Of a DNA stretch of 64,000 nucleotides, positions 14,115-17,755 are shown piece after piece (position 1 is the stretch's first letter; each line of letters opens with the position of its first letter). The notes under the pieces were generated by a model. It was given only the letters and a program-made list of their open reading frames with translations. It had not been told where the DNA came from and made no database searches. This DNA comes from Rhodothermus bifroesti (GTDB lineage Bacteria > Bacteroidota > Rhodothermia > Rhodothermales > Rhodothermaceae), in the NCBI RefSeq assembly GCF_017908595.1, contig NZ_JAGKTL010000003.1, positions 62,001-126,000 of the forward strand, given 5' to 3'. A program made the position numbers and the translations under genes.

Positions 14115-14996
14115 ATGTCGCTGCGCTATACGCTTCGGGAAGGATTGGCCGGATTGCAGCGGGCCCGTTTTGCCTCGATGGCAGCCATTAGCGCCATGAC
14201 GGTCGCGCTGGTACTCATCGGCCTGTTTACTGCAGTAGGCTACCATGCGCATCAGATCACCAACTGGCTGCGCCAGCGCGTTGGCGAAATCGAGATTTTC
14301 CTCAAAGACGATACCGATGAAGCTTTGGCGCAGGCCCTCTATGCGCGCGTTCGCAGTTTGCCCGGTGTAACCGAAGCGCGCTACATTTCCCGCGAAGAGG
14401 CGCGGCAGATTTTCTTAGAAGAGTTTGGCGAAGGGGGGGAAGTGTTTTTAGATGAACCTTTTCTGCCCGCTTCCATTCGCGTGCGTTTTGAACCTGCCTT
14501 AGCCAACCCGGATACACTAGCGCGCCTGGCTTCTTGGATTTCAAGCTGGAATCACGTTGACGAAGTGGTCTTTAATCAACCTTTACTGGTCAAGGTGCAG
14601 CAAAACCTGCGTCTTATCACCTTAACAGGGCTAGCGCTAGGGTTGCTGGTTATGTTGGCAGCTGTTTTTTTGGTAGCGAATACAATTCGGCTTACCGTAT
14701 ATGCCCGGCGGCTGTTGATCCGCACCATGAAGCTTGTAGGGGCAACAGATGCCTTTATCCGACGTCCCTTTGTAGTAGAAGGCATGGTGCAGGGGGCACT
14801 AGCCGGCTTGTTAGCTGCTTTGGTGGTGGCTGCAGCCTATCAACTGACCATAGGCTATTTGCCGCAGCTAAGCAGTAGTCCGCGGACTTTTCTGCTGGTT
14901 TTGGTGGTGGGACTGCTGCTGTATGGCATTGTGCTCGGCTGGTTTGGAGCGGCTTGGGCTGCGCGACGGTTTATTCGTCAAGTGTCGCTGCATTAA
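14115..14996 (+). CDS. ftsX: Cell-division protein FtsX (permease-like)
   Basis: 293 aa. The N-terminal cytoplasmic tail and first membrane helix (about 20-42) are followed by an extracytoplasmic domain (about 50-165, with EIEIFLKDDTDEALAQ and EARYISREEARQIFLEEFGE). Three C-terminal helices carry the FtsX permease motif NTIRLTVYARRLLIRTMKLVGA. FtsX normally pairs with the ATPase FtsE to control wall hydrolases at the septum; ftsE is not adjacent. The gene is convergent with the symporter operon, with two bases between stops and no visible terminator. Confidence 0.92.
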   Translation: MSLRYTLREGLAGLQRARFASMAAISAMTVALVLIGLFTAVGYHAHQITNWLRQRVGEIEIFLKDDTDEALAQALYARVRSLPGVTEARYISREEARQIFLEEFGEGGEVFLDEPFLPASIRVRFEPALANPDTLARLASWISSWNHVDEVVFNQPLLVKVQQNLRLITLTGLALGLLVMLAAVFLVANTIRLTVYARRLLIRTMKLVGATDAFIRRPFVVEGMVQGALAGLLAALVVAAAYQLTIGYLPQLSSSPRTFLLVLVVGLLLYGIVLGWFGAAWAARRFIRQVSLH

Positions 14997-14998
14997 GC

Positions 14999-15142
14999 TT
15001 ATTTTTGGGAAAAGTGGCGGTAGAGGGCCACAGCAACCCCAAGCGAAAGCAGCAAGACAGCCGCAGGAATCACCACGCCCCAAAGCGTCACTGAGCGTGT
15101 TGGTTCAGCGTGCTGAAACAGCAAAAACAGCGCTTGCATCAT
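14999..15142 (-). CDS. 47-aa membrane microprotein, last gene of symporter operon
   Basis: Starts at tandem ATGs (15142/15139); the first overlaps the stop of the preceding 39-aa gene as ATGA, so translation is probably coupled. The product reads MMQALFLLFQHAEPTRSVTL then a single hydrophobic helix (WGVVIPAAVLLLSLGVAVAL) and a short basic tail RHFSQK. The frame is open 42 bases further upstream, but that extension would run inside the upstream gene. I do not recognise the family. Position at the end of a four-gene transporter transcript suggests a small accessory subunit. Confidence 0.6.
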   Translation of the reverse strand: MMQALFLLFQHAEPTRSVTLWGVVIPAAVLLLSLGVAVALYRHFSQK

Positions 15143-15258
15143 ACGCGGTTTCCTTTGCGGTGATGGCGTCGGTAAGAGCGCCAAGCCAACAGCAACCCCA
15201 GGAGTGAGGCGGCGTACGCGATGGTCATCCCGATAACTGTTGCCAGCCCTTGTTCCAT
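15139..15258 (-). CDS. 39-aa membrane microprotein in symporter operon
   Basis: Translated from ATG at 15258: MEQGLATVIG, then a hydrophobic helix MTIAYAASLLGLLLAW, then a strongly basic tail RSYRRHHRKGNRV. The positive-inside rule puts the C-terminus in the cytoplasm. GGGAG lies about 7 bases upstream, and the start is one base after the stop of the 96-aa gene. The stop overlaps the next ATG. Very short single-helix partners of sodium:solute symporters are known in other bacteria; calling this one of them is inference from position and shape. Confidence 0.6.
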   Translation of the reverse strand: MEQGLATVIGMTIAYAASLLGLLLAWRSYRRHHRKGNRV

Positions 15259-15259
15259 T

Positions 15260-15550
15260 TTAGGTCTCCCAACGAACCGTTTTTTCCAGTTGCTGCAAGT
15301 ATTCCTTTTGGCGCTGCTCGTATTCTTCGGAGATGGCCTTGAGTTTGGGGTCGATTACCCAATGCAGCAACGCTGTGAGTACAATCCCGACCCCCAGCGT
15401 AACTAACCCCTCCCAACGCAGCAGCAAGCTTAGTGCTGTACCTAAGGTGAGTGTTACATAGGCCAGGGGGGAAAGAATAATCGCTATAGCGTCTTCTTTG
15501 GTCCACTCGTCAGCTTCAGCTGCCGTCCAGGAGCGTCGAATCCAGCCCAT
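15260..15550 (-). CDS. 96-aa two-helix membrane protein in symporter operon
   Basis: Soluble, charged N-terminus (about 1-20), two hydrophobic helices (about 21-45 and 48-65, the second with LVTLGVGIVLTALLHWV), then a charged amphipathic C-terminal helix (KLKAISEEYEQRQKEYLQQL) that looks like a coiled coil. It starts five bases after the symporter stop and ends one base before the next gene. I do not recognise a named family. The size and topology resemble small auxiliary subunits of SSS transporters such as the DUF4212 type, but I cannot show homology. Confidence 0.7.
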   Translation of the reverse strand: MGWIRRSWTAAEADEWTKEDAIAIILSPLAYVTLTLGTALSLLLRWEGLVTLGVGIVLTALLHWVIDPKLKAISEEYEQRQKEYLQQLEKTVRWET

Positions 15551-15555
15551 AGCAT

Positions 15556-17145
15556 TTACGTTGCAGGTTGCGTTTTGGGGGTAAGTAAGCCGCGGCGCTC
15601 AGCCTCACGACGCACCGGTCCCCACCAGCCAAGGGGGCGAGCCATCACGTAATATTTCACCAGGTGGTCCATATTTTCGGGTGGGGTTAGCAGCGTAACC
15701 GGAAGGTACACCAGCGCGCCGAGCACCATTAGCAGCCAAAACTGCTCGTAGTCGGCCAGCGGTGGTAATATGTCAAAGGCCGGCAGCACCCAGACCACCA
15801 GCCAGCTAAAGCCCAAATTCGCAATCCAAGCCGAAAGATATCCCCAGGCATTAAAACGCCACCAGACCACCTGGAGAATATTCGGCAGCCATACCCCTGC
15901 AGCCATGATCCAAAGGGCAAAAATAAGCCATGAGGTGATTTCCTCCATCATCAGCCCGTAGATCAGCGAGCCGATAAGTAAAATCAACGTGGCTATGCGT
16001 CCGACCCACACCAGCTCACGTTCAGAGGCGTGCGGCTTCACGTAGTGCTGGTAAAGGTCGCGTGTGGCGTACAGCGCCCCCAGGTTGAGGTGCGTAGAAA
16101 TGGTGGACAAGTGGATGGCTACAATACCGGCAAAGAAAAAGCCTACTAGTCCAGCAGGCAAAAAGTCAAATCCTAGTCGAAACCAGCCCAGCTCGTACTC
16201 AGCCGTGTTTTCGATACCTGGAAACATCACGTAAAAGGCTAAAATAGCTACTGCCCATAAGGCATTGCGCATGAGCACCAGTGCACTGCCCCACCAAATG
16301 CTGTAGCTGGCATCGCGCACTGTCCGGGCCGACTGAATGCGTTGTGCCTCAGCGAACCAGTCGATGGTGGTGCCCATGCCAAATCCGCCTAGTAGCGCAA
16401 TAAAAAGCATGGTCAGAAACCAGGCTACAGGAAAATCGCCCGTAAACCATCCCGTGAAAGCAAAAGGATTGAGGCGGTGCGCTTCGCCCATAGCCGTTAG
16501 CTTTTGCACAATGGCCAAAGGACCACCAGCTTCGGCAATCCCCCAAAGCGAAACCAGTACAATGATGAAAAAGGCAATAATCCCCTGCTGAAAGTCAGCG
16601 ACCACAACGCCCCAGTAGCCTGCAGCCAATACGTAAAGCGCGCAGGCGCCCGAAAAGACCACAAGCCCCACCCACGGCTCCCAGCCAAACAAAAACTGGC
16701 AGACCTTTCCCATTGCAATGCCTACCCAGCCCAGAATGAACATGTTCATAAAAACCTGCCAGCCAGCCATCCAACCACGGATGAGTTCAGCCCCCAAACC
16801 CCCAAAGCGCAGCACATTCCATTCGGCTTGCGTGTAAGCCAGCGAGCGGCGAAAAATGCGTGTGGAAACAAAGGCGCTAATGGCGCACCAGGCCGAAAAG
16901 AACGTGTACCAGATGCCGGAAAGCCCATAACGATAAATTACGCCAGTCACCCACATGGGCGTGTCCGTCGCTGTGTGCGTAGCATAGACCGAGGCCGCCG
17001 GTAGCCACCAGGGTAAACCACGGCCCGCCAGAAAAAAATCTGACTGCGAGCGTTTGCCTAGGCGATAAAAGAAAAACCCGCTGCCGATCATGATCAGCAA
17101 GTAAAGCGCAACCCAAAGCCAGTCTAGCCAACCAAAGACAACCAT
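15556..17145 (-). CDS. Sodium:solute symporter (SSS family)
   Basis: 529 aa with about 13 hydrophobic segments. It is a cation-coupled uptake transporter of the inner membrane. The family signature appears early (SQSDFFLAGRGLPWWLPAAS, then YATHTATDTPMWVTG), and later segments keep the LeuT-like spacing. The substrate cannot be read from sequence; the subfamily with WYTFFSAWCAISAF and the three small followers does not match proline or pantothenate carriers that I recognise. It leads a minus-strand operon of four genes with gaps of 5 and 1 bases and a 4-base overlap. Confidence 0.88.
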   Translation of the reverse strand: MVVFGWLDWLWVALYLLIMIGSGFFFYRLGKRSQSDFFLAGRGLPWWLPAASVYATHTATDTPMWVTGVIYRYGLSGIWYTFFSAWCAISAFVSTRIFRRSLAYTQAEWNVLRFGGLGAELIRGWMAGWQVFMNMFILGWVGIAMGKVCQFLFGWEPWVGLVVFSGACALYVLAAGYWGVVVADFQQGIIAFFIIVLVSLWGIAEAGGPLAIVQKLTAMGEAHRLNPFAFTGWFTGDFPVAWFLTMLFIALLGGFGMGTTIDWFAEAQRIQSARTVRDASYSIWWGSALVLMRNALWAVAILAFYVMFPGIENTAEYELGWFRLGFDFLPAGLVGFFFAGIVAIHLSTISTHLNLGALYATRDLYQHYVKPHASERELVWVGRIATLILLIGSLIYGLMMEEITSWLIFALWIMAAGVWLPNILQVVWWRFNAWGYLSAWIANLGFSWLVVWVLPAFDILPPLADYEQFWLLMVLGALVYLPVTLLTPPENMDHLVKYYVMARPLGWWGPVRREAERRGLLTPKTQPAT

Positions 17146-17276
17146 AGTATGGGTTTTTTAGCGAAACGTGAAGATGTCGCAAATGCTAAAAAGTATGGAT
17201 TAAAATGTCAATGCACAAAACATGGCAGAAAGCTTAAAAAAGATCAGCATGGTGCGAACTTTTAGAAAATCTGACC

Positions 17277-17326: not shown

Positions 17327-17755
17327 GTGGCACACGCAAAAGCAGGCGACCACGTCAAGGTCCACTACACCGGTCGTCTTAGCGACGGCACCGTTTTCGA
17401 CTCTTCCCGCGATCGCGAACCGCTCGAGTTCACGCTAGGCATCGGCGAAGTGATTCCGGGATTTGAGCAAGCGGTTTTGGGCATGGAGCCCGGTGAAACC
17501 AAAACCGTCACCATTCCAGCTGAGGAAGCCTACGGCCCTCGCCGTGAAGATATGATCATCGAGGTTAGCCGCGACCAGGTGGCTCCTGGTCTGCAGCTTG
17601 CCATAGGCCAGCAGCTTCAACTGCGGCTGCAAGATGGCCGCGTGATTCCAGTGGTTGTGGCTGACCTAAGCGAGGAGACGGTAACGATCGACGCTAATCA
17701 CCCACTGGCCGGTGAAGACCTGACCTTTGAAATCGAGCTGGTGGCCATAGCCTAA
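17327..17755 (+). CDS. FKBP-type peptidyl-prolyl isomerase, SlyD-like
   Basis: 142 aa cytosolic prolyl isomerase and chaperone. VKVHYTGRLSDGTVFDSS opens the FKBP fold, and LGIGEVIPGFEQAVLGMEPG is the second core motif. An inserted IF-type chaperone flap follows (about residues 65-120), then HPLAGEDLTFEIELVAI closes the FKBP fold. The histidine-rich metal-binding tail of E. coli SlyD is absent. The start is GTG at 17327, chosen because CAGGAGCG sits about 8 bases upstream. It is monocistronic, with a strong terminator 45 bases after the stop. Confidence 0.93.
   Translation: MAHAKAGDHVKVHYTGRLSDGTVFDSSRDREPLEFTLGIGEVIPGFEQAVLGMEPGETKTVTIPAEEAYGPRREDMIIEVSRDQVAPGLQLAIGQQLQLRLQDGRVIPVVVADLSEETVTIDANHPLAGEDLTFEIELVAIA

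Follow-up and report, generated by a model that had tools for sequence, protein, structure and literature searches.

The window, a 64,000-nucleotide stretch of Rhodothermus bifroesti DNA, carries a block of four genes encoding a sodium:solute symporter (SSS) core, S, and three small proteins, A, B and C (Table 1). The original prediction had described four frames in the order S-A-B-C with small spacings, and the minus-strand coordinates agree with it (S/A +5, A/B +1 and B/C −4 bases). Beyond C lies a convergent gene (14115–14996), which we take to be FtsX-like, whose stop is two bases away from that of C. On the S side, a divergent gene, presumably FKBP-like, starts at 17327. The four genes therefore stand alone in the window. 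Promoter-like sites number two in the region, compared with 1.4 expected from shuffled sequences. The end of A (Arg-Trp-Glu; window 15260–15270) is encoded by a TGGGAG-type sequence, a possible ribosome site for B. The same type of sequence is found at this place in some related loci. Where A and B overlap by 4 bases, the Arg-Trp is retained but the DNA motif mostly is not.

Table 1. Features of the four-gene block, numbered from the first nucleotide of the window.
Feature	Position	Strand	Description
S, sodium:solute symporter core	15556..17145	minus	529 aa; Pfam SSF match; vSGLT and SGLT1/2 among its matches to solved structures
A	15260..15550	minus	96 aa; two predicted membrane helices, then a long charged helix at the C-terminus
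B	15139..15258	minus	39 aa; one predicted membrane helix (VIGMTIAY motif), basic tail
C	14999..15142	minus	47 aa; one predicted membrane helix, basic C-terminal end; 4-base overlap with B
Promoter-like site (TTGACA, 17 bases, TAGCAT)	17183..17211	minus	38 bases upstream of S; weak evidence

By its sequence, S is a divergent member of the SSS family. It scores 90.4 bits against the Pfam SSF model (PF00474; cut-off 22.8, E = 1.5e-25), and 105.3 bits against the NCBIfam sss model (TIGR00813; E = 3.7e-30), which is below the cut-off of 184 yet a clear match. It shares 69–95% identity with its counterparts in other block loci and aligns with vSGLT, SGLT1, SGLT2 and others among solved structures. 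Residues S347 and T348 are invariant in 15 of 15 sequences and align with S364 and S365 of vSGLT, which we take to be Na2-site residues. Those of vSGLT that we assume to form the galactose site (N64, Q69, E88 and N260) align with H, T, T and T in S. As the Na2 hydroxyls are kept and the galactose-site residues changed, S is likely to be coupled to Na+ and is likely not to bind galactose in the manner of vSGLT. The predicted structure of S was poor (pLDDT 52) and was set aside. The symporter of one Calditrichota locus (L033:6731-8692) has an insertion of ~120 residues in the loop past position 220, with no Pfam match above cut-off.

The membrane helices first read from the three small proteins are borne out by their hydrophobic stretches, of which there are two in A (22–40 and 48–66) and one each in B (7–25, followed by the basic tail) and C (22–40). 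As predicted by AlphaFold2 (mean pLDDT 85.2), A has helices at 10–14 and 18–42 and one long helix at 46–95, which fits a protein of two membrane helices and a long charged helix running well past the membrane. A fold search with A against solved structures gave 25 matches at E ≤ 10, the best being PorL/GldL chains, and none at E ≤ 0.001. None of A, B and C matched a Pfam or NCBIfam family above cut-off. COX4 was recovered with 15 of 15 members of A (best E = 0.0016) and Oxidored_q2 with 8 of 15 members of B (best E = 0.0048). In both cases the window's own protein was below the Pfam cut-off, and both candidates were rejected as generic membrane-helix matches.

A sequence search with A found a match in 12 of 296 genomes of the phylum, while a search with S (E ≤ 1e-60) returned the same 12 genomes at 75–100% identity and one further genome at 33%. 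Profiles of A and B, searched against 394 phylum genomes, each had strong matches in 19, and the 19 genomes were identical. At E ≤ 0.1 the A profile reached 29 genomes and the B profile 77. The strong group (E ≤ 1.8e-45 for A, E ≤ 1.7e-20 for B) was separated from the remainder (E ≥ 1.7e-4) by at least 16 orders of magnitude. The weaker matches that were inspected (8 of 11 for A, and five for B) were long unrelated proteins, presumably LptG-like, NuoL-like and others, or one short frame. A search of plasmids with A gave no match.

A pattern-based scan of named genomes detected nine loci, in Rhodothermales (five), KSB1, Calditrichota/Calditrichaeota (two) and Aminicenantes. Three of these (L027, L030 and L034) were counted as duplicates of profile-positive genomes (G309, G297 and G348, respectively), leaving six added loci from KSB1, Calditrichota, Aminicenantes and Rhodothermales and a total of 25 genomes (19 + 6). 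Absence of the block from relatives would have counted against the original prediction, but the block is found in 25 genomes of the window's phylum, KSB1, Calditrichota and Aminicenantes. Gene content was established by script for 21 loci and by profile for seven, less the three duplicates; in the scripted loci, start codons were picked by rule and C was placed by hand in six. All four genes are present in 25 of 25 genomes, in the order S-A-B-C in 24 and as A-B-C-S in one (L033). Spacings in the 21 loci range from −14 to +31 bases, outside L040 (138 and 36), L042 (310) and L033 (178 before S). The 310 bases of L042 are an intergenic insertion between B and C in an otherwise tight block, and the 138 bases of L040 are one between A and B, with short repeated words inside.

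The distribution of the block is patchy, extending to three of the five sampled genomes of the window's genus. The other two (G050 and G058) lack A and B by profile search and have a different frame after their FtsX-like gene. In one genome scored as negative (G242), the contig stops 47 residues into S, behind an epimerase gene, so that an assembly gap accounts for at least one of the absences. Among the 394 genomes, A and B were never found without the transporter. The window's genome has nine SSF matches and one match each to the A and B profiles, and no A, B or C was found by profile in the stretches examined at its other eight SSF loci. Of these loci, L048 ends with its SSF frame, and for L047 and L054 the small frames downstream were listed from a wrong frame.

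Purifying selection acts on all three small frames, which are evolving as proteins. The synonymous-rate test that had been suggested for them found that synonymous changes exceed replacements in A, B and C, with pooled pN/pS (Nei-Gojobori counts, five disjoint pairs) of 0.05 for S, 0.13 for A, 0.19 for B and 0.35 for C. For B and C, Fisher's test gave p = 7e-16 and 2e-9, respectively. Single pairs vary, one of them (L035-L036) giving 0.66 for A on three changes. Overlapping frames are no explanation for the synonymous excess in B and C, since the two overlap by at most 14 bases. Among 15 sequences, 22 positions are invariant in A, ten in B and five in C, which is the least conserved of the small proteins (median identity 42%) and has the highest of the three ratios. 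The recurrence of B and C beside A in 19 of 19 profile-positive genomes and at the six added loci, together with the synonymous excess in all three small frames, rules out chance. Pairwise distances of S correlate with those of A, B and C (r = 0.80, 0.75 and 0.82), a level reached by none of 2,000 permutations, with species relatedness left uncontrolled. Rows outside Rhodothermales are unresolved in a tree of S, and for this reason we claim no direction of transfer. The block is a real, conserved and tightly spaced four-gene symporter unit.

Some SSS transporters are paired with a small two-helix subunit, DUF4212, and the original prediction had set the three small proteins apart from this single partner. 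The distinction stands. DUF4212 is absent from the Pfam matches of A, B and C (15 sequences each, E up to 1), and profile comparison with hhalign (three DUF4212 sequences, 3 of 15 loci extracted) gave probabilities of 1.7, 0.8 and 1.0%, respectively. The two arrangements share a small membrane partner, of two helices in the case of DUF4212 and A, and differ in that DUF4212 is a single partner that A, B and C do not resemble by profile. ActP and its YjcH-type partner DUF485 form a similar pair, an SSS transporter and a small protein of two helices whose genes are closely spaced in a single operon. There, however, a single partner is encoded before the transporter, and it too lacks supported profile similarity to the small proteins. 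DUF485 was absent from the Pfam matches of the 15 A, 15 B and 15 C sequences, and hhalign against ten DUF485 sequences gave 8.5% over 11 columns for A, 1.7% for B and 9.3% over 27 columns for C. Positive controls, a split DUF4212 set and distant A members compared with other A members, both reached 100%. The similarity between DUF485 and DUF4212 (probability 38%, 53 columns) exceeds that of either family to the three small proteins. Across 148 phylum genomes, DUF4212 was found in 55 and DUF485 in three (two above cut-off), and neither was found in the window's genome. Two block-bearing genomes (G003 and G008) carry DUF4212 as well, so both systems coexist side by side.

Genes that adjoin the block in relatives provide a clue to its substrate. 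A GlcNAc 2-epimerase, RnBP-like (best match PDB 1fp3, E = 9e-101, with cellobiose epimerases at 6e-23 or weaker), adjoins the block in 12 of 25 genomes; 11 of these copies share its orientation, and one copy is truncated by a contig end. It is present in 12 of the 19 block genomes (in G250 on a contig other than that of the block), compared with 6 of 21 without a detected block. None of the three genomes of the window's genus that carry the block (G000, G003 and G008) has it, and this absence, with its presence in just 12 of 19, rules out the epimerase as a general requirement of the block. A GH38-type protein (alpha-mannosidase) lies behind C in 5 of 25 genomes, assigned by Pfam in two and by similarity in three, one of these being split over two frames. 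CBM9 and GH92 proteins are found near the block in L033, and a sialate-esterase-like protein ahead of S in L028. These neighbours point to a sugar substrate, most likely of the mannose or N-acetylhexosamine kind.

Some loci have a xylose-isomerase-like TIM barrel upstream of the block (L037, L039 and L041–L043) or DUF1080-type proteins downstream (L037, L038 and L041–L043), and these form a larger sugar cluster around it. In the window's genome, another SSS gene (G000 C1, L052) is followed by a frame that we take to be GH130 phosphorylase-like, again a sugar context. No sugar gene was found directly beside the block in the window's genus. The sugar clue is indirect, and weakest in this genus because both the epimerase and an adjoining sugar gene are missing.

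From their sequences and arrangement, the four genes probably encode one Na+-coupled symporter, in which an SSS core would form a complex with three small membrane subunits. The 19 of 394 genomes that have A are those that have B, each of them also has S and C, and the linkage survives the rearrangement in L033; these observations support a four-part symporter. It is further supported by the purifying selection, by the single A and B matches beside nine SSF matches in the window's genome, by the retained Na2-site hydroxyls, by the confident hairpin model of A, by the dependence of SGLT2 on MAP17 and by the sugar enzymes near the block in relatives. Counting against it are the poor model of S, the two of five genus genomes without the block, the lower conservation of C and the indirect clue to the substrate. 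More tentatively, the core may work only with its three partners, which would make the block a heteromeric four-subunit Na+ symporter, built with three undescribed small families and kept as a unit across several phyla. A would be a two-helix hairpin with, judged by charge, both ends cytosolic, and its long C-terminal helix may rest against the conserved cytosolic tail of the core. B and C would each cross the membrane once next to the scaffold, with the basic end, again judged by charge, on the cytosolic side.

In this reading the complex would depend on A, B and C to assemble, to remain stable or to reach full activity, much as SGLT2 depends on MAP17. The human Na+/glucose cotransporter SGLT2 requires the single-helix auxiliary subunit MAP17 for function, according to one report (PMC10803289). 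MAP17 is described there as contacting TM13 of SGLT2 and staying with the immobile part, and it may act via stability or surface expression and not directly (PMC10803289). The pair resembles the block in joining an SSS core to a small membrane partner (PMC10803289); it differs in being eukaryotic and in having one partner instead of three. An auxiliary role of the MAP17 type for the small proteins is suggested by this analogy.

Instead of serving as structural subunits, the small proteins could be regulators or turnover factors, similar to SgrT, MgtS and AcrZ, whose binding to the transporter depends on conditions. Bacterial transporters are well known to be controlled by small proteins of this sort (PMC10710835), but the placement of the genes within the tight operon of the transporter itself, in 25 of 25 genomes, would fit constant supply better than conditional control, and we consider this explanation unlikely.

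An origin by replacement appears less likely still, with A taking the place of a C-terminal two-helix tail that is fused to the core in the nearest SSS relatives, and B and C being later additions. The closest relatives of S (31–33% identity, ~570–670 aa; L025, L051 and others) do end in such a tail, preceded by a motif that resembles the end of S, where S stops, and the topology would fit. The relatives differ from S in that the tail is fused, and no A, B or C was found by profile beside L025 or L051. However, A as a detached tail was rejected on profile comparison (tail alignment of 29 of 32 proteins, with L115–L117 left out), which gave a probability of 1.0% (P = 0.055); higher values, of 2.4, 2.3 and 1.1%, came from three of the 24 control windows.

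A part in another membrane process, with the operon merely shared, is very improbable for the small proteins. A and B were never separated from the transporter in the 394 genomes and their linkage outlasts changed gene order and different neighbourhoods. That B and C are not real genes can be practically discounted; despite their small size and the lack of a family match above cut-off, they recur in every one of the 25 genomes with an excess of synonymous change.

To our knowledge, SSS transporters have mostly been treated as single chains with at most one small partner. The open-access literature searched contained no description of an SSS transporter with three partners, and nothing on DUF4212 or on a sodium solute symporter together with either Rhodothermus or DUF485. 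The block defines three protein families that can be used by annotation. If the four-subunit symporter is true, its three small partners, two of them below 50 aa and lacking a family model in the libraries searched, would mean that the SSS fold lends itself to assembly as a multi-subunit machine, and the block would offer a simple model in bacteria for the dependence of SGLT2 on MAP17.
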